Part shown: positions 1-11,012 of the stretch, piece after piece | Layout: every line of letters begins with the position of its first letter | Position numbering within the stretch: position 1 is the stretch's first letter | DNA from: Pseudomonadota bacterium | GTDB taxonomy: Bacteria; Myxococcota; Myxococcia; Myxococcales; Myxococcaceae | Length of the DNA: 11,012 bases | Assembly (NCBI GenBank): GCA_023424585.1 | Contig: JAFADT010000297.1 | Span: 1 to 11,012, forward strand | Direction: 5' to 3' | The notes under the pieces: generated by a model | What the model was told of the DNA's origin: nothing | Database searches by the model: none | The model's input: only the letters and a program-made list of their open reading frames with translations | Translations under genes and position numbers: made by a program

Positions 1-387
1 ACGCAGACGTCCGGCGCGGGCGCCGTGGACACGGGCCGCAAGCAGGTCGTCAAGGTGCCCCAGGTCGCGGACTCGGTGCCGGAGGTGGACAGCTCGGAGG
101 TCAGCCCCAAGGAGCTGGCCCGCTTCATCCAGCGCATGAAGGCGTCCATCCAGCGCTGCTACGAGAAGGAGCTCAAGCGCGACCCCACCCTCAAGGGCAG
201 GGTGATGGTCCGCTTCAACCTCAAGCCGGACGGCCGCGCGGGCAACGTGGAGGTGGAGGAGTCCACCCTGCGCTCCGAGGGCGTTAGCAGTTGCATCATC
301 ACCACCATCCGCGGCTGGAAGTTCCCTTTCCAACCGAGTGACGACGTCCCCGTCAGCTACCCGTTCATCTTCTCGCCAGGGGAATAG
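1..387 (+). CDS. AgmX/PglI C-terminal domain protein, 5'-truncated
   Basis: The frame is open from base 1, so the start lies upstream; 128 codons and a TAG at 385-387 are visible. The first ~35 residues look like a linker, followed by a compact C-terminal domain. It has an 'IQRCYEKELKRDPTLKGRV' helix, alternating strands ('VRFNLKPDGRAGNVEVEEST') and a second cysteine before 'IRGWKFPFQ'. This two-cysteine, TonB-C-like pattern is that of the AgmX/PglI C-terminal family, which in myxobacteria usually ends long proteins linked to gliding motility or TonB-like energy transduction. The domain would be periplasmic and may bind an envelope partner; the two cysteines could form a disulfide. The N-terminal part is outside the window, so the full architecture and role cannot be stated. 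Family assignment is fairly sure; function is inference. Confidence 0.8.
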   Translation, partial: TQTSGAGAVDTGRKQVVKVPQVADSVPEVDSSEVSPKELARFIQRMKASIQRCYEKELKRDPTLKGRVMVRFNLKPDGRAGNVEVEESTLRSEGVSSCIITTIRGWKFPFQPSDDVPVSYPFIFSPGE

Positions 388-434
388 GCTCGACCTCCCG
401 GATCTTCCGGAGGCACCGGAACCGCGGGGAGCAC

Positions 435-881
435 ATGGAGAAGCTGGCCGTCATCGCCACATCCCCCCTCTTCGAGATGCTGGCCCCCGCCGAGCTGGCG
501 CGGCTGGCGGAGCTGGCGCGGCTGTACCGGTACGCGCACGGCGAGGTGGTGTTCGAGGAGGGCGACCTGGGCGACAGCCTCTTCGTCATCGTCCGCGGCC
601 AGGTGGAGGTGGTGCGCCGGGGGCCCGGCAACGCGGTGAAGCCCCTCACCGTCCTGGGCCCGCCGGAGTTCTTCGGGGAGATGGGCCTCATCGACAAGGA
701 CCACCGCTCCGCCACCGTGCGCGCCCTGGGCGAGGTGGAGCTGCTCCAGCTCACCGCGCAGGACTTGCGGACCTTCCGGCTGGCGCACGCGGACGGCTTC
801 ACCTTCATCGTCGTGAACATCGCGCGCAGCCTGTCCGCCCGCCTGCGCGAGGCCAACGCCCGCCTGGCGCCCCCCGAGTGA
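435..881 (+). CDS. Stand-alone cyclic nucleotide-binding domain protein
   Basis: This 148-residue protein is almost entirely one cNMP-binding (Crp-like) beta-roll. Residues ~5-32 form the lead helix ('SPLFEMLAPAELARLAEL'), 'GDLGDSLFVIVRGQVEVV' (43-60) is the central roll, and 'FFGEMGLIDKDHRSATV' (79-95) is the phosphate-binding cassette with Arg91 placed to contact the cyclic phosphate. A C-terminal helix follows and the protein stops at about residue 148. There is no helix-turn-helix, kinase or transmembrane segment, so it is not a Crp/Fnr regulator and would act by binding a partner in the cytoplasm. Whether the ligand is cAMP, cGMP or none cannot be read from sequence. The ATG at 435 has a weak, close GGGGAG (426-431); the start is supported by the domain beginning directly after it. 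It lies 47 bases after the AgmX-domain gene, possibly in one transcript. Confidence 0.85.
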   Translation: MEKLAVIATSPLFEMLAPAELARLAELARLYRYAHGEVVFEEGDLGDSLFVIVRGQVEVVRRGPGNAVKPLTVLGPPEFFGEMGLIDKDHRSATVRALGEVELLQLTAQDLRTFRLAHADGFTFIVVNIARSLSARLREANARLAPPE

Positions 882-926
882 GCGCCGGCCGCCGCAAGCT
901 GGACCCCAGGCCGATGGGGCATTGCG

Positions 927-955
927 TTGACACCCCCTCCCCTCGCTCCTACGCT
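927..955 (+). promoter_or_regulatory. Sigma-70-like promoter for the secreted-protein gene
   Basis: A perfect -35 box TTGACA (927-932) is followed by exactly 17 bases and TACGCT (950-955), which keeps the key T, A and final T of the -10 consensus. It sits in the 109-base gap before the gene starting at 991, so transcription would begin near 962. The fit is by eye only. It suggests that the secreted-protein gene, and perhaps the beta-barrel and OPX genes after it, form a unit separate from the two genes upstream. Confidence 0.55.
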
Positions 956-990
956 CGACCCCCGACGCTTGGAAGGGGCCGGAAGGACTC

Positions 991-1563
991 GTGACGCGCA
1001 TGCGCACCCTGGGAATGCTCGCCGTGGTCGGGGGACTCATCACCTCCGGGATGGCGCTCGCGCAGACGCTCGCGCAGACGCCCCGCCCCGCGCCGCCCGC
1101 GCTGGACAAGGCCGGCGAGGTGCCGGACAGCCAGAAGCTGGAGCGCAGCACGCAGGCCCTGGGCGGCATGCGCGAAGCGCTCCGCCAGGTCTTCGAGAAG
1201 GTCGAGGAGGCGCGGCGAACCAAGGACGTGGTGAAGCTCAACTGCGCCAACGAGAAGCTGACGCAGATCAAGGGCCTGCTGCGCATCTCCGAGCAGGCGG
1301 ACGTGGCCCTCCAGGAGGCCGTCAGCAAGAGCGAGGCGGCGCCCGGCGAGCACGAGTTCACCAAGGTGATGATCGCCCAGCAGAAGGTGGGGCAGCTGCG
1401 CTCGGAGGCCGAGGAGTGCATCGGCCAGCTCGCCTTCCGCACCGACGAGAACCTCTTCGTGGAGGTGGAGGAGCCCGACAACCTGCCCGGTGGAGACCCC
1501 ACGCGTCCCCCGCCGCCGTCGGACCTGGTGGTCCGGCCTCCTCCCGCGAGCCCCGTGGACTGA
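991..1563 (+). CDS. Secreted helical protein of unknown function
   Basis: I do not recognise the family. The 190-residue product opens with a clear Sec signal peptide (about residues 1-25: basic start, hydrophobic core, cleavage near 'MALAQ'). A Pro-rich linker, an acidic/basic helical region (~45-148) rich in Glu, Gln, Lys and Leu with two cysteines (Cys85 and Cys143), and a Pro-rich tail ('TRPPPPSD', 'RPPPASPVD') follow. The helical part could be a coiled-coil hairpin closed by a disulfide, which would place it in the periplasm. The GTG at 991 has GGAAGGA at 981-987, only 3 bases away; an in-frame ATG at 1000 would be 12 bases from that site and gives a nearly identical product. A 12-base tandem duplication overlaps the signal-peptide cleavage region. 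The gene precedes the polysaccharide-export pair, so an accessory role in export is possible but unproven. Confidence 0.75.
   Translation: MTRMRTLGMLAVVGGLITSGMALAQTLAQTPRPAPPALDKAGEVPDSQKLERSTQALGGMREALRQVFEKVEEARRTKDVVKLNCANEKLTQIKGLLRISEQADVALQEAVSKSEAAPGEHEFTKVMIAQQKVGQLRSEAEECIGQLAFRTDENLFVEVEEPDNLPGGDPTRPPPPSDLVVRPPPASPVD
1055..1080 (+). repeat. 12-bp tandem duplication in signal-peptide coding region
   Basis: The unit CGCTCGCGCAGA occurs twice in perfect tandem (1055-1066, 1067-1078) plus two further bases. In frame it writes Leu-Ala-Gln-Thr twice, right at the predicted signal-peptidase site, giving two equivalent A-Q junctions. It keeps the frame and looks like recent slippage. Confidence 0.85.
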
Positions 1564-1673
1564 GTGGCTGGCCGCCTGCCCACCTTGCGCGCTCCGGGCC
1601 TGGAGCGTTTGTTCCGGTGCGGGAACCCGCGTGCTATGCCCGCCGTCTCACCACCTGGAGCGCCCCTGACACC

Positions 1674-2933
1674 ATGAAGCAGCCTGGGACATTCCGTCTG
1701 GCCCTCGGGGCCCTGGCGCTCGCGGCGATGCTGCCGACGGGGGCGTCGGCGCAGGCCTTCGTGGGCGGACAGCCTCCGGGTGGCAACGGCCTCAAGGTGG
1801 GCAACGGGCGGCTGCACCCGACGCTGGACCTGGAGACGCGGCTGGACAGCGGCGTGGGCTACTTCCGCGACGCGGGCACCGGCCCCGTGTCCCCGGACCT
1901 GTCCGGAGAGCTGGCGCTGCACATCCGCCCCGGGCTGATGCTGGAGGTGCCGTCCCCCAAGCTAGCCATCGCGCTGCGCGGCAACCTGGACTACGTGGCC
2001 TACACGGGCCTGCTCACGGCGGGCTCGAGCGCGGCGTCGCACCTGGAGGGCGCGGCGGAGCTGGCGCTGCGGTTCGACCAGGAGAGCACGCTGTCCGTGG
2101 AGGTGGGCGACGAGCTGACGCGCTCGGACCGCACGCGCACGGCGGCGCTGGGCGCGGGCGTCCTCAGCCTCTTCAACGAGGCGCGCGTGAAGGCGCAGTG
2201 GAAGCCCGGCGGCGGCGCGCTGGAGGTGACGCCGTCGCTGGCGTACGCGATGGAGTTCTTCGAGCCCCTGGGCGGCGTGACGCCCGTGGGCTGCACCGAC
2301 GCCGCCTGCGATCCGCTGGCCGCCAGCCAGTTCAACTACGGCAACCTGCGGCTGGGCGCGGAGGGCCGCTGGCGCTTCCTGCCCAAGACGGCGGTGGTGG
2401 TGGACACCGGCCTGGAGTACCGGGGCTACTTCAACGACACCACCACGCCGGGCGCGGCCATCCTGCACGCCATGGCGGGCGTGTCCGGCCTCGTGTCCCC
2501 GCGCATCACCCTGACGGCGAAGGCCGGCTGGAGCCAGAACCTGGGCTCGAGCGGCGGCGGCACGGCGGTGGGCCAGGTCGAGGGCACGTACCTCTGGGGC
2601 CCGTCGCTCACCGTGAAGGGCGGCTACCTGCGCGCCTTCGAGCCGGTGGCCTCCTACGGCACCTTCCGGGACGACCGCGTCTACGCGGAAGGACGTTCCG
2701 TCATGGGCAGCAAGCTCGCGCTGCACGCCATGGGCGCGCTGGACTTCCTCTCCTTCGCGGGCGGCCGCGGCGACACGCTGCTGACGCTGGACCTGGGGCC
2801 CGAGTACCAGATCCGCCCCTGGCTGGTGGGCGCGGTGGGCTACATGCTGGGCACCCGCTCTTCGTCGCTGGGCGCCGCCGGCCTCAACTACACCCGCCAC
2901 GAAGGCTACGCGCGGGTGTCCGTCTCCTACTGA
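1674..2933 (+). CDS. Outer-membrane beta-barrel, probable polysaccharide export partner (WzpX/S/B-like)
   Basis: The 419-residue protein begins with a Sec signal peptide (hydrophobic core '[12 protein letters not shown]', cleavage after 'GASA'). The rest consists of short alternating polar/apolar stretches rich in Gly, Tyr, Leu and Val with no long hydrophobic helix, ending in 'GYARVSVSY'. A terminal aromatic residue in such a strand is the usual signal for Bam-dependent insertion of a beta-barrel. ATG 1674 was chosen because the signal peptide starts there; GGAG (1657-1660) is 13 bases upstream. The OPX lipoprotein gene follows after 17 bases. In M. xanthus, short OPX proteins lacking their own outer-membrane helix are each encoded beside a beta-barrel (WzpX, WzpS, WzpB) proposed to form the outer-membrane pore, and this pair has that layout. 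The barrel call is strong; the export role rests on context. A generic barrel is the alternative. Confidence 0.8.
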
Positions 2934-2950
2934 GGCCCTCTTCCGCGCCC

Positions 2951-3568
2951 ATGCGTCCCTCGCGGCCCCGCGTCGTCCTCCCGGTCCTCCTCCTGGCGGT
3001 GCTGTCGGCGTGTCACGCGGACACGCGCCCGCCGCCCCCTCCGCCCACGCCGGCCGCGTCCACGGAGGCCGCGGCGACGTCCGGCGGCAACCTGGGCCCC
3101 GGTGACGTGGTGGAGGTGCGCGTCTTCCAGGAGCCCGAGCACTCCGGCACCTGGCGCGTGTCGCCGGAGGGCACCATCGACTATCCCCTGTGCGGCAAGG
3201 TGGCGCTGTCCGGCCGCACCGCCAGCGCCGCGGCGGACGCGCTGCGCGACTGCCTGGCGCGCTACCTGCGCCGCCCGCAGGTGTCGGTGCTGGTGCGGGA
3301 GTACAACTCGCAGAAGATCTTCGTCTTCGGCGAGGTGCAGAAGCCCGGCACCTTCCCCGTCACCGGCGAGGTGTCCATCATCCAGGCCATCACGCTGGCG
3401 GGGGGCTTCACCAAGCTGGCGGCGAAGAACAACACGCTCGTCACGCGCGTGGTGGACGGGCAGGAGCGCAAGATTCGCGTGCCCGTGGAGGACATCGGGG
3501 TGGGCCGCGAGCGCAACTTCCTGCTCCAGGCCGGCGACATCGTCTTCGTGCCGGAGAGCTTCTTCTAG
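2951..3568 (+). CDS. Short OPX (Wza-like) polysaccharide export lipoprotein
   Basis: The 205-residue product has a lipoprotein signal ending in the lipobox Leu-Ser-Ala-Cys21, then a Pro/Ala-rich linker. A Poly_export (PES) domain spans about residues 47-115 ('[19 protein letters not shown]', '[15 protein letters not shown]'), and one SLBB domain follows ('[16 protein letters not shown]', '[16 protein letters not shown]'). The protein ends at '[11 protein letters not shown]', without the C-terminal amphipathic helix that classical Wza uses to cross the outer membrane and without extra SLBB repeats. It would therefore form a periplasmic ring needing a separate pore, for which the beta-barrel 17 bases upstream is the obvious candidate. 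No Shine-Dalgarno site is evident before ATG 2951, which fits translational coupling. No glycosyltransferase, Wzx, Wzy or Wzc gene is visible nearby, so the exported polymer is unknown. Its stop codon overlaps that of the convergent phosphatase gene. Confidence 0.9.
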
Positions 3569-4389
3569 TCGCGCGACGTCCAGCCGATCTCGTCCAGGAA
3601 GCGCTTCGCCTGGGCCATGAGCAGGGGCGCCAGGTTCGCGCCGCTCGCGAGCACGTCGCCCTTGCGCACGTCGAAGGGCCGCCCGTCGATGTGCACGATG
3701 ACGCCGCCGGCCTCCGCCACCAGCAGGCCGCCCGCGGCGATGTCCCAGGGCTTGAGGCCGAACTCGAAGTAGCCGTCGAAGCGGCCGGCCGCGACGTACG
3801 CCAGGTCCAGCGCGGCGCTGCCGGTGCGGCGCATGCCCTGCGCCAGGAGGATGAGCTGGGAGAAGAGGCCCACGGGCAGGTCCGGGCGCTCGCGCACGTC
3901 GTAGGGGAAGCCCGTGCACAGGAGCGCCCGCTCCAGCGTGTCCGTGGGGCTGGCCTTCAGGGGCACGCCGTTGAGCGTGGCGCCCTCGCCCTTCGCGGCG
4001 GAGAAGAGCTCGTCGCGCATGGGGTCGTAGACGGCGCCCGCCACGGTGCCCTCCGGCCCCTCCACCGCCACGCTGACGCAGAAGTGCGGCACCCGGTGCG
4101 AGTAGTTGGTGGTGCCGTCCAGCGGATCCACCACCCAGCGGAAGGTGTCGCTGCCCTGCGTCGCGCCGCTCTCCTCCGCGAGGACGGCGTGGCGCGGGTA
4201 GCGCGCCCGGAGGAAGTCCAGCAGCGCCTCCTCGGAGGCGCGGTCCGCGTCCGTCACCAGGTCGATGCCGCCCTTGAACTCGATGGTGCGGTGCTGCGGG
4301 AAGCGCTCGCGGAGGATGCGCCCGGCCATGCGGGCGCCCTCCTCCGCGGTGCGGCGCAGCGCGGCGGGCGTTTCCGGTTCGTGGGCCAT
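3565..4389 (-). CDS. Inositol monophosphatase family protein (SuhB-like)
   Basis: At 274 residues this is a full-length member of the Mg-dependent inositol monophosphatase family. The metal-site motifs are all present: '[11 protein letters not shown]' (44-54), 'AEES' (71-74) with the metal-ligand glutamates, '[14 protein letters not shown]' (85-98) with Asp88 and Asp91, and 'PWDIAAG' (214-220) with Asp216. It would hydrolyse inositol-1-phosphate or a related sugar or nucleotide phosphate in the cytoplasm; family members also act as histidinol-phosphate phosphatase, PAP phosphatase or the non-catalytic SuhB, and sequence alone does not decide. A GAGGGA Shine-Dalgarno site lies 8 bases before the ATG at 4389. 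It is the last gene of the minus-strand run, 24 bases after the thioredoxin gene. Its TAG lies in the CTAG shared with the convergent OPX gene, leaving no room for a terminator between them. Confidence 0.9.
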
Positions 4390-4413
4390 GGGTGCGTGTC
4401 CCTCGGGTGCGCG

Positions 4414-4998
4414 CTAGGAGGCGGGCTCGGCGAGCAGCTGCTCGATCTCCGTCTGGAACTGCTGGAGGAACTCCTCGGCGAAGCCCTCGTGCACGTGGCG
4501 GATGACGCCCTTGCGGTCAATCAGGAAGGTGGTGGGCATCAGCCGCACCTTCAGCAGGCGCTCGGACACCAGCGCGTTGGCGTCCAGGAGGACGGGCAGC
4601 TCCACCTTCGCCTCCTCCAGGAAGGGCGGGATGGCGCGCACGTCCTCGTCCACGTTGAGCGCGTAGGCCTTGAAGCCCCGCGCGCCGTACTCCTTCTGGA
4701 GCTGCGCGTACATGGGCAGCGCGTCCTTGCAGGGCTCGCACCACGTGGCCCACACGTCCAAGAGGACGACCTGTCCCCGGTCGCTCTTCAGGTCATACGT
4801 CGAGTTGTCCGGGTAGCGCTTCACCTGGAAGGCCAGCGGCTGCCCCGGGTTCTGCTGTGACGACCGCAGGGCGGAGGCGCTGGAGCGCGGAGCGTCGCGG
4901 GTGCGGTCCGTGAGCGGGGGCAGCGATGAGGAGGGCGCCGCGGCGCAGCCCAGGGCGAACGCCAGGGCTCCCAGCGAGAGGAGGAACGGACGGCGCAT
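4414..4998 (-). CDS. TlpA-like thioredoxin-fold lipoprotein
   Basis: The 194-residue protein starts with a lipoprotein signal (lipobox Ala-Leu-Gly-Cys18), then has a low-complexity Ser/Pro linker to about residue 52 and a TlpA/ResA-type thioredoxin domain. The redox site is 'WATWCEPC' with Cys87 and Cys90, the cis-proline is in 'LMPTTFLID' (Pro155), and 'GARGFKAYALNVDED' is the usual strand-helix insertion of the family. It should be membrane-anchored on the periplasmic side and reduce or exchange disulfides in envelope proteins. The target is unknown; cytochrome c maturation genes are not visible here. An SD-like GGGGAAGGGAG (about 5009-5019) overlaps the end of mpl, and only 4 bases separate the mpl stop from this ATG, so translation is probably coupled. 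It ends 24 bases before the phosphatase gene. Family is clear; partner unknown. Confidence 0.88.
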   Translation of the reverse strand: MRRPFLLSLGALAFALGCAAAPSSSLPPLTDRTRDAPRSSASALRSSQQNPGQPLAFQVKRYPDNSTYDLKSDRGQVVLLDVWATWCEPCKDALPMYAQLQKEYGARGFKAYALNVDEDVRAIPPFLEEAKVELPVLLDANALVSERLLKVRLMPTTFLIDRKGVIRHVHEGFAEEFLQQFQTEIEQLLAEPAS

Positions 4999-5002
4999 GG
5001 CT

Positions 5003-6472
5003 TCAGGCTCCCTTCCCCGCCCGGGCCTTCAGGGCGGTGAGCAGTTTGTCGATGAAGCCCCCGAAGGAGCCGTTGCTCATGACGAGCAGCACGTCACCGG
5101 CCTTCGCCTCGGACGCGACGCGGTCCACCAGCGTCTGCACCTCGGTGGCGCCGTCCGCGGCGATGCCCTGGCCCTTCAGCGCCTCGATGAGCCTGGGGAC
5201 GTTGAGCTCCTCGCCCTCGGGCACCTTGTCGTGGCGCTCGGGCACCTTGAGGCTGGCGCGCGCGGCGCCGGGGAAGGCGTGCGCGTAGTCCTCCTGGTGG
5301 ATGTTGCGGCGGCTGGTGTTGGAGCGCGGCTCGAAGATGGCCCACAGGCGCCGGTCCGGGTAGCGGTGGCGGATGGCGGCGATGGTCTCCCGCACAGCGG
5401 TGGGGTGGTGCGCGAAGTCATCCACCACGAGCACGCCGTCCACCTCGCCGCGCACCTCCTGCCGGCGCTTCACGCCCTGGAAGGAGGACAGGCCCTGCTG
5501 GATTTCGGCGAAGGTGAGGCCCAGGCCGCGCGCGGCGGCGATGACCGCGAGCGCGTTCTCCACGTTGTGCGCGCCGGACAGGGGCAGCGTCACGGTGCCC
5601 AGGTCCTGACCCCTCTCGATGACGTTGAAGCGCGCGCCCTCCGGGCCGAAGGAGAGCTGCCTCGGCGTGTAGTCCGCGTCCGCGCCCTCCCGGGCCACGT
5701 AGGTGTGGACGGGTGCGGCGCCGCCGCGCGCGATGCGCACGGCGTTGGGGTACGCGGCGCAGACGACGAGCTGGCCGTCCGTGGGCACCAGGCGCACGAA
5801 CTTCTCGAAGGTGGCCTCGTAGTGGGGCAGGTCGCGGAAGATGTCCGCGTGGTCGAACTCCACGCTGGTGATGATGGCGGTGCGCGGGCGGTAGTGGAGG
5901 AACTTGGAGCCCTTGTCCCAGTAGGCGGTGTCGTACTCATCGCCCTCGACGACGAAGTGCGGGCCCGTCCCCACGCGGTAGTTGCCTGAGTAGTTCTGGG
6001 TGACGCCGCCCACGAGGAAGCTGGGGTCCCGGCCCGCGGCCACCAGCACGTGGGCCATGAGCGAGGACGTCGTCGTCTTCCCGTGCGTGCCGGCGACGAC
6101 GACGGAGTGCGAGCGGTCCAGGAAGAGCGCACCCAGGGCGGCGGGGAAGCTCATCTGCTTGAGGCCCCGCTCGCGCACGGCGGTGGCCTCCGGGTTCACG
6201 CGGCGGATGACGTTGCCGATGATGACCAGGTCCGGCTTCGCGGCGTCCAGGTTGGCGGGCGCGTAGGGCGTGCTGACGGGGATGCCCCACGTCCGGAGCA
6301 TGTCGCTCATGGGCGGGTAGACGTTCTCGTCGCTGCCGGTGACGTCGTAGCCGGCGGCCTTGAGCATGCCGGCGAAGGAGCCCATGCCCGTGCCGGCCAC
6401 GCCCACCAGGTGGATGCGGCGCACGGACTTCGGGTCGAGGGTGTCGAGGACGTTGCCGTTGTCGTCAGCCAT
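5003..6472 (-). CDS. mpl: UDP-N-acetylmuramate:L-alanyl-gamma-D-glutamyl-meso-DAP ligase
   Basis: This 489-residue cytoplasmic Mur-ligase paralogue joins recycled murein tripeptide directly to UDP-MurNAc using ATP. The N-terminal Rossmann domain shows 'IHLVGVAGTGMGSFAGML' (20-37); the central ATPase domain has the P-loop 'GTHGKTTT' (128-135), 'EGDEYD' (176-181) and 'FDHADIF' (206-212). The C-terminal domain has 'DDFAHHPTAVRETI' (351-364) and 'FEPRSNTSRRN' (380-390). The last two, with the 'DEYDTAYWDKGSKF' stretch, resemble Mpl more than MurC, and length fits Mpl. A GAGGA Shine-Dalgarno site overlaps the upstream hydrolase stop and lies about 9 bases before ATG 6472. LdcA, which makes the tripeptide substrate, is two genes upstream in the same run. 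MurC is the main alternative, but no other division or murein-synthesis gene is present. Confidence 0.9.
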   Translation of the reverse strand: MADDNGNVLDTLDPKSVRRIHLVGVAGTGMGSFAGMLKAAGYDVTGSDENVYPPMSDMLRTWGIPVSTPYAPANLDAAKPDLVIIGNVIRRVNPEATAVRERGLKQMSFPAALGALFLDRSHSVVVAGTHGKTTTSSLMAHVLVAAGRDPSFLVGGVTQNYSGNYRVGTGPHFVVEGDEYDTAYWDKGSKFLHYRPRTAIITSVEFDHADIFRDLPHYEATFEKFVRLVPTDGQLVVCAAYPNAVRIARGGAAPVHTYVAREGADADYTPRQLSFGPEGARFNVIERGQDLGTVTLPLSGAHNVENALAVIAAARGLGLTFAEIQQGLSSFQGVKRRQEVRGEVDGVLVVDDFAHHPTAVRETIAAIRHRYPDRRLWAIFEPRSNTSRRNIHQEDYAHAFPGAARASLKVPERHDKVPEGEELNVPRLIEALKGQGIAADGATEVQTLVDRVASEAKAGDVLLVMSNGSFGGFIDKLLTALKARAGKGA

Positions 6473-6484
6473 GCTGCGGTTTCC

Positions 6485-7648
6485 TCAGGGGAGGACGTGG
6501 AGGTCGAGCGCCTCCACGACGAGCTCGTGGAAGGCGGGGCGGAAGTCGCGGATGCGCAGGTCCTGACGGCCCTGGGCCACGCGGTTGGTGATGAGCGCGA
6601 CGACGAGCGAGCGCCTCAGGTCCACCCAGAGGCTGGTGCCGGTGAAGCCCAGGTGGCCCACCGCGCCTGGCGGCGTGTCGCCGATGAAGCGGCCCGCGCT
6701 GGAGTACCCCTTCGACGGCGAGTCGAAGCCCATGGAGCGCGTGCTGCCCTCCACCAGCGGGTCGGTGGCGAGCGCGCGGTGCCACAGGGGCCCGGGGGCG
6801 ATCGCGGAGTGCCGGCCCGCGGCGCCCTCCAGCACGGCCTGGCCGAAGCGGGCCACGTCCACGGCGGTGCCGAAGAGGCCCGCGTGTCCGGCGACGCCGT
6901 CCAGCACCCAGGCGTTGTCGTCGTCCACCTCACCCGGGCGGGACGGCTGGGACGGCACGTCCTTCCACAGCGACTCCTGGCCGGGGGCGGGCTCGCGGGG
7001 GCGCATGGCGCCGGTGGGGGCGGTGGCGCCGTCGGCGGGGAAGTCGGTGAGGCGGTGGAAGCGGGCCTGGAGGTCCAGCGGCTCCGCGACGTGGCGGTGG
7101 AAGAGCACGTCCAGCGGGGCGCCGCCGGCGCGGGCGAGGATGTCGCCGAGGAGGATGAAGCCCACGTCGCTGTACGCGGACTTCGAGCGCACGGGCGCGT
7201 CGAGCGGCGTGGCGGCGGCGGCGTGGAGGACGTCCGCGTGGACCTGGGCGCGGACGGACGCGGGGCAGGCGGCGTCGAGCAGCTCCGGGTGGGCCTTGAG
7301 GGCGTCCGCGAAGAACGGGACGAAGGGGGGCAGGCCGGAGCGGTGGTAGAGCAGGTCCGCGACTGTGACACCCGCGTCGCCCGCGGGCGAGCCGGGGAAG
7401 TAGCGGGACACGAGCGTGTCCGGGCCCACCTTGCCCTCGGTCCACAGGCGCAGGAAGAGCGCGGTGGTGGACAGGACCTTGGTGAGGGACGCGAGGTCGA
7501 AGCGCGTGTCGCCCTTCACGCCGCCGGCGACGCCGCCGAAGACCTGCACGCCCTTGTGGAGCACCACGGCCTGGGCGGCGGGGAAGATGCCCAGCGCCAC
7601 GCCGTCGTCGAGCACGGCCTGGAGGTTGGCGATGGGGTGCTGGCTCAT
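6485..7648 (-). CDS. Beta-lactamase-family serine hydrolase
   Basis: The 387-residue protein belongs to the class C beta-lactamase/penicillin-binding family. It has the nucleophile motif Ser54-Leu-Thr-Lys57 in 'FDLASLTKVLSTT', Tyr159-Ser-Asp161 where the family usually has Tyr-x-Asn, and 'GHLGFTGTSLWVD' (331-343), in which His332-Leu-Gly334 stands for the third motif. There is no signal peptide or membrane segment, so it should be cytoplasmic. Family members include esterases, D-amino-acid peptidases and AmiE (YbbE) of Bacillus subtilis, which splits peptide from MurNAc in murein recycling. Sitting between ldcA and mpl, this gene may have such a recycling role, but that is inference. ATG 7648 overlaps the ldcA stop in ATGA, so translation is coupled. 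The frame stays open far upstream, but that stretch is antisense-like shadow over ldcA. It ends 12 bases before mpl. Confidence 0.88.
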   Translation of the reverse strand: MSQHPIANLQAVLDDGVALGIFPAAQAVVLHKGVQVFGGVAGGVKGDTRFDLASLTKVLSTTALFLRLWTEGKVGPDTLVSRYFPGSPAGDAGVTVADLLYHRSGLPPFVPFFADALKAHPELLDAACPASVRAQVHADVLHAAAATPLDAPVRSKSAYSDVGFILLGDILARAGGAPLDVLFHRHVAEPLDLQARFHRLTDFPADGATAPTGAMRPREPAPGQESLWKDVPSQPSRPGEVDDDNAWVLDGVAGHAGLFGTAVDVARFGQAVLEGAAGRHSAIAPGPLWHRALATDPLVEGSTRSMGFDSPSKGYSSAGRFIGDTPPGAVGHLGFTGTSLWVDLRRSLVVALITNRVAQGRQDLRIRDFRPAFHELVVEALDLHVLP

Positions 7649-8559
7649 CCGGGGCTCACCGCGCCTTCGAGGAACGTGAGGCGCGCGGCATCCGCGTCCA
7701 GGCGCACGTGGGTGCCCAGGGCGACGGGGAAGTGGATGGGGCCATGGCCGATGGGGAAGCCCGCGGCGCACGGCAGCTTCGCGTCGCGCGCCAGCTCGCG
7801 GAGCACGTCCGCGCTGGAGTAGCTCGCGTCCCGCTCCTCGCAGGCGGTGAAGTCTCCCAGGACGATGCCGCGCACGCGGGAGAAGACACCGGCGAGCCGC
7901 AGGTGGGTCCACATGCGGTCGATGCGGTAGGGGCGCTCGGTGACGTCCTCCAGGAGGAGCACGGCGCCGTCGAGCGGCGGCAGGTACGGCGTGCCCAGGA
8001 GCCGGGAGAAGACGGACAGGTTGCCGCCCACGAGGACGCCCTCGGCGGAGCCGGGGACGTAGGTGGCGTTGCCGGTGAGGGGCGGCGGGGCCTCCGGGGA
8101 TTCGAGCAGGCGGAAGAAGGCGTCGTGGACCTGCGACGACTGGCGGCCCAGCTGCGTGAGGACGGGCGCGTGGAAGGACACGCGGTGCAGGGCCTGGAGC
8201 GCGCAGTGGATGGACGTGAGGTCGGAGAAGCCGGTGAAGGAGACGGGGCCGGCCTTGTCGAGCGGCAGCTCCGGCAGGAGGCGCGCGCTGCCATAGCCGC
8301 CGCGGGCGCAGAAGATGGCGCGGGTGGAGCGGTCGAGGAGCGCGTGGGACAGCTCCTCCTGGCGGCGGGCGTCGTCGCCGGCGAGGTAGCGATGCGAGGC
8401 GCCGATGTCGGGTCGGACGACGGGGGTGTAGCGCTCGGAGAGGATGCGCAGGCCGGCCTCGAAGGGGGCCTGTTCGAAGGGGCCCGCGGGGGCGACGACC
8501 TGCACCGTGTCGCGGGGACGGAGCGGAAGGGGCTTGAGCCAACGCACGCAGCGCTTCAT
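7645..8559 (-). CDS. ldcA: Muramoyltetrapeptide LD-carboxypeptidase
   Basis: The product (304 residues from ATG 8559) is a full-length S66-family LD-carboxypeptidase. It removes the terminal D-Ala from murein tetrapeptides in the cytoplasm, giving the tripeptide used by Mpl. Motifs in order: 'VQVVAPAGPF' (19-28), 'CARGGYGSARLLP' (84-96), the nucleophile region 'FTGFSDLTSIHCAL' with Ser112, 'LLLEDVTERPYRIDRMWTHL' (201-220) carrying the catalytic Glu (204 or 208), and 'GFPIGHGPIHFPVALG' with His272. These fit the Ser-Glu-His triad. An in-frame GTG at 8580 would add seven residues; neither start has a good Shine-Dalgarno site, and ATG was preferred because family members begin shortly before the 'LKPLPLRPRD' stretch. 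It probably starts the recycling operon, 114 bases after the methyltransferase gene; I see no convincing promoter in that gap. Confidence 0.9.
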   Translation of the reverse strand: MKRCVRWLKPLPLRPRDTVQVVAPAGPFEQAPFEAGLRILSERYTPVVRPDIGASHRYLAGDDARRQEELSHALLDRSTRAIFCARGGYGSARLLPELPLDKAGPVSFTGFSDLTSIHCALQALHRVSFHAPVLTQLGRQSSQVHDAFFRLLESPEAPPPLTGNATYVPGSAEGVLVGGNLSVFSRLLGTPYLPPLDGAVLLLEDVTERPYRIDRMWTHLRLAGVFSRVRGIVLGDFTACEERDASYSSADVLRELARDAKLPCAAGFPIGHGPIHFPVALGTHVRLDADAARLTFLEGAVSPG

Positions 8560-8673
8560 AGCACCCGGTGCCAGGGCCACGCGGTGTTTCAGGGAGCCCG
8601 GGGCCCGAAGCGTTGAGTACCGCGGGACGGAGGCACGAGGCCCCCTGGAGCGCTCGTCCGCCCGCTGGCTGCC

Positions 8674-9867
8674 CTACCCCTTCGGGTCGCGCTCGAGGAC
8701 GGCCGCGAAGAACCCGTCCGTGCCGTGCCGGTGTGGGGTGACGAAGAGGAACCCGTCCTGGAGGCACGCGTCCGGAAGCCATCCGGCGCACGGCCGTACC
8801 GCGTGGAAGTCGGGATGGGAGCGGAGGAAGTCCACGACCACGTCCTGGTTCTCCGCGCGGTTGACGGTGCAAGTCGCGTAGACGACCCGGCCGCCGGGGC
8901 GCACCACGTCCGCGGCCCGGGCGAGGATGTCCCGCTGGACGGCGGTGAACCGGGAGAGCGAGTCCGGGGTGAGCCGGAAGCGGAGATCCGGCCCCCGGCG
9001 GAGCGAGCCCAGCTCGGAGCAGGGCACATCCGCGAGGACGCGGTCGGCGTCGAGGCCGGGTGACGGAGGCGTCCGGAGCACCTGGACGCGGGTGAGGGCG
9101 GCGCGGGAGGCGCGTTGCTGGAGCCGGTCCAGCCGTTCCGCATCCGGGTCGTAGGCCAGCAGCCGGCCGGAGTCCCTCATGGCCGCGCCCAGTTGGAGCG
9201 TCTTGCCCCCTGCCCCGGCGCAGAGGTCGACCACGGTCTCCCCGGGGCGGGCCTCCACGAGGAGCCCCAGGAGCTGGCTGCCCTCGTCCTGGACCTCGAA
9301 CAGGCCTTCACGGAGGGACGACAGGGCGTAGAGGTTCGGCCGGGGCCCCTCGACATGAAGGGCCAGCGGGCTCCAGGCGCCAGGGCGGGTCGAGACGCCC
9401 TCGGAGGCCAGGCGCGCGGCGAGGGCCTCCCGGGAGAGGCGGGCGGGGTTCACCCGGAGCGTGATGGGGCCCGGGACGTTGAGGTGCGCGCAGAAGTCCT
9501 CCGCCTCCGTCCCCAGCTCACGGGAGAAGTGGTCCGCGAGCCAGTCCGGCAGTGAGGCCCGGAGCGCGAGCGACGGGGGCGTTTCGGTCCGCAGAGGCAC
9601 CGGAGCCGCAAGCCCCGCCCACGACGCGGCGTCCGAGGCGGGAACGCCCACCAGGCCATGCATGAGCGCGAAGAGGAGCGCGGAGGGAGGCGCGTCCGGC
9701 GAGTCCAGGAGGAACCCCAGGCGGCGGCGCCAGAGGCCCACGTTGAAGACGGCCTCCTTCAGCGCCTGGCGCCCCTCGCGGGACAGGTCGCGGTGGGCAC
9801 GCAGGGTCCGGTCGAGGACGCGCTCGGCGGGGTCGCCCGAGAGGACGCGAGCAAGCGCATCGGACAC
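8674..9867 (-). CDS. RsmB/NOL1/NOP2/Sun-type rRNA (cytosine-5) methyltransferase
   Basis: The 397-residue protein is a SAM-dependent RNA m5C methyltransferase. An N-terminal NusB-like helical region (~1-115) with 'LDRTLRAHRDLS' and 'EAVFNVGLWRRRLGF' precedes the catalytic domain: 'ITLRVNP' (135-141), SAM motif I 'VVDLCAGAGGKTLQLG' (212-227), motif IV 'DVPCSELGSLRRGPDLRF' with Cys283, and motif VI 'VYATCTVNRAEN' with Cys333. The two cysteines are the release and catalytic residues of this family. RsmB (16S C967) is the likeliest orthologue given the NusB-like part, but RsmF or another paralogue is not excluded. Motif IV is unusual, Val-Pro-Cys-Ser-Glu rather than Ala-Pro-Cys-Ser-Gly. The start is GTG 9867, without a clear ribosome site. 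The frame stays open for about 30 further codons upstream with plausible sequence but no ATG, GTG or TTG. Confidence 0.88.
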   Translation of the reverse strand: MSDALARVLSGDPAERVLDRTLRAHRDLSREGRQALKEAVFNVGLWRRRLGFLLDSPDAPPSALLFALMHGLVGVPASDAASWAGLAAPVPLRTETPPSLALRASLPDWLADHFSRELGTEAEDFCAHLNVPGPITLRVNPARLSREALAARLASEGVSTRPGAWSPLALHVEGPRPNLYALSSLREGLFEVQDEGSQLLGLLVEARPGETVVDLCAGAGGKTLQLGAAMRDSGRLLAYDPDAERLDRLQQRASRAALTRVQVLRTPPSPGLDADRVLADVPCSELGSLRRGPDLRFRLTPDSLSRFTAVQRDILARAADVVRPGGRVVYATCTVNRAENQDVVVDFLRSHPDFHAVRPCAGWLPDACLQDGFLFVTPHRHGTDGFFAAVLERDPKG

Positions 9868-10008: not shown

Positions 10009-10081
10009 TCCCCGATAGCTCAGCTGGTAGAGCGGGTGACTGTTAATCACCATGTCCGTGGTTCGAGTCCACGTCGGGGAG
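10009..10081 (+). tRNA. tRNA-Asn (anticodon GTT)
   Basis: A full cloverleaf can be drawn. The acceptor arm is TCCCCGA (10009-10015) with TCGGGGA (10074-10080); the D-stem is GCTC/GAGC (10018-10021, 10030-10033). The anticodon stem GGTGA/TCACC (10035-10039, 10047-10051) holds the loop CTGTTAA with GTT at 10042-10044. The T-arm is CGTGG, loop TTCGAGT, CCACG (10057-10073). The discriminator base is G10081. CCA is not encoded; the next bases are CAA, so the tail must be added enzymatically. Anticodon GTT reads Asn codons. An intrinsic terminator follows within 10 bases. Confidence 0.97.
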
Positions 10082-10089
10082 CAAAAAAG

Positions 10090-10121
10090 AAGGCCCTGCC
10101 CTAACCCGGCAGGGCCTTTTT
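10090..10121 (+). terminator. Intrinsic terminator after tRNA-Asn
   Basis: AAGGCCCTGCC (10090-10100) and GGCAGGGCCTT (10108-10118) form a perfect 11-bp stem with a 7-base loop, followed on the plus strand by T's to 10121 and, after GC, four more. A's at 10083-10088 precede the stem, so it might also stop minus-strand transcription. It insulates tRNA-Asn from the genes that follow, so the hamA unit needs its own promoter, which I could not identify. Confidence 0.9.
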
Positions 10122-10140
10122 GCTTTTCGCGCGCCTAGCG

Positions 10141-10311
10141 ATGAACATCGCAGGAGCTTCGACGTTTCTAGCGAGAGCACTGAAGGTTCGCAGCTGTCGG
10201 ACACATGGGCGGCCGAAACCAGTTAGTCGTGCCGAGGAACTGCTCGCACTGCACGAGAAGTTCAACGAGCCGGGCTTCGCCACGCTCCACATTGGGGGAG
10301 GCCAAGCATGA
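10141..10311 (+). CDS. Small ORF of unknown function, coupled to hamA
   Basis: I do not recognise this 56-residue product. ATG 10141 is the first standard start after the terminator; a TTG at 10120 lies inside the terminator and is unlikely. No Shine-Dalgarno site precedes the ATG. The predicted protein is basic in its first half ('ALKVRSCRTHGRPKPVSR'), has a short predicted helix ('AEELLALHEKFN') and ends in 'HIGGGQA'; it has no signal peptide or membrane segment. Its TGA overlaps the ATG of the next gene (ATGA, 10308-10311), which supports real translation and coupling to hamA. It could be a genuine small accessory protein, a translated leader, or the tail of a decayed gene from the integrated element. 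An in-frame TAA at 10102-10104 closes the frame upstream, so it is not the end of a longer intact gene. Confidence 0.4.
   Translation: MNIAGASTFLARALKVRSCRTHGRPKPVSRAEELLALHEKFNEPGFATLHIGGGQA
10294..10301 (+). promoter_or_regulatory. Strong ribosome binding site for hamA
   Basis: GGGGGAGG lies 6 bases before ATG 10308, inside the end of the small ORF. It is among the best Shine-Dalgarno matches in the window and fixes the hamA start at the ATGA overlap. Confidence 0.75.
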
Positions 10312-11012
10312 CCACTAGCGTTGATGCGACAGGGCCTGCCGTGACGCCGCCCGATAACGCGTCGGCCACTACGACGGTCGCACCACCAGAGCCCTTAGAG
10401 GAAGCACTGAAGCGCCTTGCACGAGGCACGCCTACTGCGCTCGCGGGGCTCCTTCAGGATGTGGAAAGCCACGTAATCGTCGACGGCACCCAGGTCACTG
10501 CTCATTGCCACTGCCTGAAGCTCGATGGGAACGGACGACCGCGGATCCAGGACCTAGTGAAAGTCGTCGCGGAACACGTTCTTGACTACGCAATCCCCCG
10601 CAGCCGGATCCGCGAAGCCGCCGAGGAATTCGAGCGAACCCGTTCGACGCAGAAGCTCATGCGCCTTGCGGAAGAAGCCAAGAGTCTATTCACGGACCTT
10701 GATCAGAGCGGCGAAGGAGGAGAGCTGCTGCTGTTCGCCCTTGCAGAGAAAGTCCTCCAACTCCCACAGCTCATTTGCAAGATGAGCCTTAAGACCAACA
10801 CTAGGATGCACGTCCACGGTGCGGATGGCCTGCATGCGGGTGTCGATACCGCAACTGGAAAGCTCCTCCTCTACTGGGGCGAGTCGAAAATTTATGGCGA
10901 CGTCACGGGTGCCGTTCGGGAGTGCCTCGCGTCCGTCCGGCCGATGCTCGCTGAACACTCTGCCGGCCAGCGAGATCTCCAGCTTCTCCAGCGTCACGCG
11001 GACCTCGACTCC
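10308..11012 (+). CDS. hamA: HamA, DUF1837 nuclease of Hachiman anti-phage system, 3'-truncated
   Basis: The frame runs open from ATG 10308 to the window end, giving 235 residues with no stop. The first ~30 residues are low complexity (Thr, Ala, Pro); a second part follows ('HVIVDGTQVTAHCHCLKLDGNG'), then the DUF1837 core. The core shows 'GELLLFALAEKVLQLPQLICKMSLKTN' (from residue 138), 'MHVHGADGLHAG' (167-178) and 'LLLYWGESKIYGDVTGAVRECLAS' (from 186). Asp173 and the Glu192-x-Lys194 pair fit the PD-(D/E)xK-like active site of HamA, whose nuclease activity is held in check by the helicase HamB and unleashed in infection. hamB should follow directly but lies outside the window. The gene is poorer in GC than the chromosome to its left and uses AT-ending codons (Lys AAA, Ile ATT, Leu TTA/CTA) more often, a sign of transfer. 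A DUF1837 protein of a related two-gene defence system is the alternative. Confidence 0.82.
   Translation, partial: MTTSVDATGPAVTPPDNASATTTVAPPEPLEEALKRLARGTPTALAGLLQDVESHVIVDGTQVTAHCHCLKLDGNGRPRIQDLVKVVAEHVLDYAIPRSRIREAAEEFERTRSTQKLMRLAEEAKSLFTDLDQSGEGGELLLFALAEKVLQLPQLICKMSLKTNTRMHVHGADGLHAGVDTATGKLLLYWGESKIYGDVTGAVRECLASVRPMLAEHSAGQRDLQLLQRHADLDS

Follow-up and report, generated by a model that had tools for sequence, protein, structure and literature searches.

The hamA frame at the window edge

The stretch of DNA analysed here, called the window, comprises the 11,012 nucleotides of contig JAFADT010000297.1 (assembly GCA_023424585.1) from a bacterium of the Myxococcaceae. At its right edge it ends inside an open reading frame that is confirmed as the first part of hamA, the nuclease component of the two-gene phage-defence system Hachiman. 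The frame lies to the right of a tRNA-Asn gene, in what is probably inserted foreign DNA, and its partner gene hamB, which encodes a Ski2-like SF2 helicase, would follow beyond the edge. The features of the locus are listed in Table 1.

Table 1. Features at the right end of the window
Feature	Position	Strand	Basis or remark
tRNA-Asn (gtt), intact; putative left border of inserted DNA	10009..10082	+	ARAGORN; conserved with flanking core DNA in 16/16 genus genomes
TCGGGGAGC, tRNA 3' end common to the internal direct repeats of relatives; putative attachment-site core	10074..10082	+	
Probable left end of inserted DNA, with terminator-like hairpin	10083..10307		genus-alike until ~10161, then no match; G+C 0.60
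Ribosome-binding-site-like GGGGGAGG	10294-10301	+	6 bases ahead of hamA ATG
hamA, N-terminal 235 codons (of ~406)	10308..11012	+	PF08878; PADLOC HamA1 PDLC00163; identity to P0001
Low-complexity N-terminal extension, residues 1-29	10308..10394	+	low-confidence model, no secondary structure
Codons 138-143, GELLLF, with conserved E139 in predicted helix	10719..10736	+	G138 and E139 invariant in 18 diverse HamAs
Putative nuclease active-site region, codons 170-194 (HGADGLHAG...YWGESK), acidic D173 and pair E192-x-K194	10815..10889	+	

The frame runs from its ATG to the edge without a stop codon. The sequence-only reading had described an open frame with a DUF1837 signature, and the four motifs that it quoted are all present in the 235 codons. 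The profile search it had proposed, with PF08878 (the former DUF1837), gave 145.9 bits on the 235 residues against a cut-off of 25 (E 2.3e-42, residues 82-234). Twenty PADLOC families match the frame, all of them HamA models, the best being HamA1 PDLC00163 (E 6.4e-85). The scores of HamA1 (283 bits) and HamA2 (272 bits) do not separate Hachiman subtype 1 from subtype 2, and the HamB proteins of relatives likewise score closely with models of both subtypes. At E <= 0.001 the protein search yielded 455 homologues, and the homologue statistics given below rest on the best 120, all of which contain PF08878. The top homologue, P0001, has 406 residues, is 100% identical across all 235 window residues and matches PF08878 over residues 82-319 (profile positions 2-230 of 230, E 1.7e-59). 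The start of hamA is placed at 10308 because GGGGGAGG lies six bases upstream and because the alignment with the DNA of G118, the nearest relative with a complete genome, begins exactly there (77.7% over 704 alignment columns). The earlier description of the window as holding half of a defence system stands insofar as the gene is cut by the edge; the window contains 235 of about 406 hamA codons, that is, part of one gene.

Putative catalytic residues and predicted structure

D173, E192, S193 and K194 are invariant in an alignment of 18 diverse HamAs. Among 64 closer homologues D173 and E192 are again invariant, and K194 is kept in at least 90%. The predicted structure of the window protein has the HamA fold of Hachiman, and its comparison with solved structures, also proposed earlier, returned Hachiman chains. 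The best structural match is 8zue_A (14% identity in structural alignment), titled as the Hachiman defence system from Escherichia coli, a chain of 531 residues in which the match covers chain residues 252-537 and which carries a large extra N-terminal part. HamA of E. coli ECOR31 (8VX9, 8VXY; PMC12278908) shows 10-12% identity to the model; the solved chain has 259 residues and lacks the long tails, against 406 residues here. E192 and K194 can only be presumed to be the counterparts of ECOR31 E138 and K140, because Hachiman chains were not among the solved structures reached by sequence searches, which yielded only AbpA, a protein of the AbpAB system that also has a HamA domain. Family models, predicted fold and invariant D...ExK residues thus agree with the earlier assignment of the frame to HamA. 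Neither outcome named beforehand as refuting it was seen: the 235 residues do match DUF1837, and the downstream neighbour in the source genome lies beyond the window.

The probable partner gene hamB

Relatives of the window HamA were collected from 12 genome loci and five viral-contig loci. The five were obtained with alignment A1; when one protein alone served as query, 23 stretches of viral contigs matched, with no relative among them. The protein encoded directly 3' of hamA matches PADLOC HamB models in all 10 of the loci tested among these 17, the match in L011 covering only residues 1-315 of a 530-residue frame. Outside this count are L010, which ends at hamA, L012, where the next frame breaks off after 0.5 kb, and also L018 and L020-L023. 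The sizes of contigs tell the same story: 38 of the 120 listed HamA homologues lie on a contig whose size exactly equals that of a contig carrying one of 119 listed HamBs, against a mean of 0.65 and a maximum of 5 in a jittered control.

When 195 genomes of the phylum were searched with HamA, eight had a match, and only one match, in G118 (locus L087, same family), is close (83% identity over 234 residues). It belongs to a complete pair, a hamA of 397 codons followed directly by a hamB of 875 codons with a 14-nucleotide overlap (HamB1, E 0), and its HamA carries an N-terminal extension and a C-terminal tail of the same type. The two loci differ in their surroundings: the DNA upstream of the G118 pair is unlike that of the window, and no tRNA is present in the 20 kb read, so that the pair appears to move independently of the tRNA-Asn site. 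A search of one literature library returned no paper on Hachiman together with myxobacteria.

In the viral contigs the hamB frame is split in L022 and the hamA frame in L023, while both are unsplit in L019, L020 and L021. Right after hamB, on the opposite strand, L019 (11546-12733) and L020 (11246-12445) carry a frame that we take to resemble a P4-type integrase; if so, integrating elements also carry related pairs. One genus relative, G010 (C737:19106-24136), has two HamA-like matches in the same orientation with 4.4 kb between them, at 33% and 32% identity to the window HamA.

The Hachiman system of E. coli ECOR31 provides the model of function. As shown for that system (PMC12278908), its HamB helicase surveys intact DNA and restrains HamA, while DNA damage leads through helicase action to activation of HamA and to degradation of phage and host DNA.

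In the source genome of the window, hamB, presumably intact, would start directly after hamA and overlap its end by 14 bases, and the overlap would lead to joint translation of the two proteins into one complex. By family membership the ECOR31 mechanism may hold here too: HamB would survey intact DNA and restrain HamA until the complex met damaged DNA, whereupon helicase activity would activate the nuclease and both phage and host DNA would be degraded.

Gene overlap and terminal extensions

In L007, L008, L009 and L087 the same letters, [A/G]TGGC...CGTGA, close hamA and open hamB as M/V-ALRD, and the C-terminus of P0001, KGNPNGAA, is compatible with such a 14-nucleotide overlap. Among the 120 listed, HamB starts with MALRD in 31 cases and with VALRD in 8. 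Both anchors needed for measuring length are present in 90 of the 120 HamA homologues. In 67 of these 90, the part beyond the last conserved strand is 45-87 residues long, the final helix accounting for about 18. An end that permits hamB overlap is found in 60 of the 67 long-tailed HamAs against 10 of the 23 short ones. The last residues of HamA seem to be dictated by the hamB ribosome site and start codon, which occupy the same DNA.

At the other end, the model of the window protein has low confidence over residues 1-40 (block predicted local distance difference test, pLDDT, 44-46), with the first helix at residue 30. An N-terminal extension is common among homologues, in which 6-54 residues of varying sequence precede the first conserved helix (measurable in 90 of 120). 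The suggestion that the extension is specific to this lineage therefore survives for a broad subgroup and fails for this genome alone; the tails mark that subgroup rather than this genome, and both ends of its HamAs are probably disordered.

The long C-terminal tail, identified in 84 HamAs by the C-terminal anchor alone, is net positive in 80 of them (mean +6.0, range -2 to 12), the remainder of the same proteins averaging a net charge of -7.2; in P0001 the tail carries +9 across 67 residues. Such a basic tail might conceivably help to hold HamA on DNA. We lean towards the explanation that the tails, as low-complexity sequence of GC-rich genomes, are near-neutral, held in place by the hamB overlap and lacking a function of their own, as their length and letters differ widely among homologues and the conserved hamA end coincides with the hamB ribosome site and start in the four loci named above; the consistent positive charge, set beside the acidic remainder, speaks against this explanation. 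A far bolder proposal, which we regard as doubtful, is that in the tailed subgroup the basic disordered C-terminal tail tethers the nuclease to DNA and alters its release by HamB, and that the subgroup spreads with hamA and hamB already joined in an overlapping unit. In this genus it would use the tRNA-Asn site, at which short modules, most of them lacking their own recombinase gene, would accumulate in tandem and be moved by a recombinase acting from elsewhere.

Probable insertion beside tRNA-Asn

The DNA from 9500 through tRNA-Asn matches all 16 genomes of the genus, and this similarity ends by ~10161; beyond the tRNA 3' end the DNA differs from genome to genome. hamA has a G+C content of 0.61 and of 0.68 at third codon positions (GC3), as opposed to 0.71-0.75 and 0.92-0.99 in the six core genes to its left. 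No HamA closer than 33% identity is found in any of the 16 genomes. The hamA region is thus best read as foreign DNA inserted next to tRNA-Asn, with hamA as its probable cargo and the right border outside the window. The core neighbourhood (window 1-9867) encodes polysaccharide export, inositol monophosphatase, thioredoxin-like, Mur ligase, beta-lactamase-fold, LD-carboxypeptidase and RsmB proteins, along with a cyclic-nucleotide-binding domain.

The tRNA 3' end recurs downstream as direct repeats in several genomes, preceded by GAGAACGAGTTCGCGCAGGGCTTC. A 35-letter junction pattern, allowed up to 3 mismatches, occurs 17 times in 11 of the 16 genomes and never when reversed. In the three single-contig genomes with matches (G007, G011, G014), all seven copies share one strand and follow the tRNA at distances of up to ~180 kb. 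Same-strand repeats of a tRNA 3' end are the usual mark of repeated insertion, and related bacteria also use this tRNA-Asn as a landing site for foreign DNA. A search of 10 genomes with PF00589 gave one match in the G014 array and none over the 100 kb following the G011 tRNA, and a search of five genomes with PF00239 gave a single match, again in the G014 array, and none in the 100 kb of G011; these two recombinase families were the ones searched. The two G014 matches (PF00589, tyrosine recombinase; PF00239) lie at C1:2321800-2322342 and 2345418-2345870.

Tandem direct repeats of the tRNA-Asn 3' end, in one orientation and with 24 conserved bases to their left, are seen at window 10074-10161, in G011 (C1:2273790-2318989), in G014, in G006 (C554), in G007 and in G009, and the modules between them in G011 measure ~3 to 24 kb. 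What seems to be one and the same small module, with dehydrogenase-like and LysR-like frames by eye, occupies different array positions in G011 (asm 42480-45157) and G009 (650-3254), as if modules were exchanged between tRNA-Asn arrays. Farther beyond the G011 tRNA (asm ~52221-72000), a one-strand cluster resembles, by eye, a contractile phage-tail-like system.

A defence hotspot at tRNA-Asn was considered and is not claimed. At E <= 1e-8, PADLOC models match 16 of 38 tRNA-side proteins from 16 genomes (6/10, 7/10, 2/10 and 1/8), with at least one in 11 of the 16 genomes; the first 20 proteins had been chosen by eye as defence-like, and the matches include generic ones (a kinase in G007) and weak ones (G011, G014). 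Nine core window proteins used as a control gave two matches, both generic (the cyclic-nucleotide domain and RsmB). The strong matches are DruE1 in G005 (1868 bits), type I methylase and/or restriction genes in G010, G013 and G016, and the candidate pair PDC-M65A/B in G004; their loci are L075:10976-17065, L078, L081, L082 and L058:1625-5025.

Weighing of the explanations

We give a probability of about 0.93 to the reading that the right edge cuts through the hamA of a Hachiman system lying on foreign DNA next to tRNA-Asn in a Myxococcaceae genome, with hamB directly after it. Several observations weigh against it. The last part of hamA, and any hamB of the source genome, lie beyond the window. 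Among the matches listed (best 120 per search), no HamB was found on a contig of the 2,836-base size of that of P0001, using as queries the first 505 residues of the HamB of a relative and 320 residues aimed at fragments. Other loci have different hamA-hamB junctions, namely a 4-nucleotide overlap (2), an 11-nucleotide one (3) or a 1-nucleotide gap (4), and in L016 the junction script found no hamB start. In structural alignment the model shares only 10-14% identity with the E. coli structures, sequence searches of solved structures with P0001 or profile A1 found no Hachiman chain, and the wider profile A3 found AbpA only (9wh1, E 6.3e-6), in a segment without E-x-K.

The first of these points would also suit a HamA by descent whose system is non-functional here, hamB being absent, damaged or no longer adjacent, as is seen on mobile DNA; the split frames of the two viral contigs fit such a loss. 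It is unlikely, given 235 open codons, a P0001 that stays open for 406 codons with an end compatible with hamB overlap, and the intact pairs of relatives. Continuous residence in the chromosome, with hamA as an old gene rather than inserted DNA, is still less probable: tRNA-Asn belongs to the core together with its neighbours, and the window shows no integrase, but the low GC3 of hamA, the end of genus similarity by ~10161, the unrelated upstream DNA of the G118 pair and the sister genomes, all 16 with different tRNA-side contents and no hamA at the site, speak against it. Least credible of all is a DUF1837 nuclease with another partner, for example an AbpAB-like system, in place of Hachiman proper. 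AbpA shares the HamA C-terminal domain, and 8zue_A exceeds the classic HamA length; however, the best models of the proteins after hamA in close relatives are HamB, the window protein has the E-x-K that the aligned AbpA segment lacks, and the architectures differ, AbpA having 528 residues with its HamA part at 236-524, against 406 residues with the domain at 82-319 here.

Significance

The window hamA is a real yet ordinary find, a clean member of the already known Hachiman system with modest extras, and even as such it adds a myxobacterial member to the family. The tRNA-Asn site offers a defined place in which to seek more defence modules in the genus. Hachiman has been solved in E. coli, and the tailed subgroup of GC-rich soil bacteria is a natural variant with which to probe whether parts outside the core tune the release of the nuclease.
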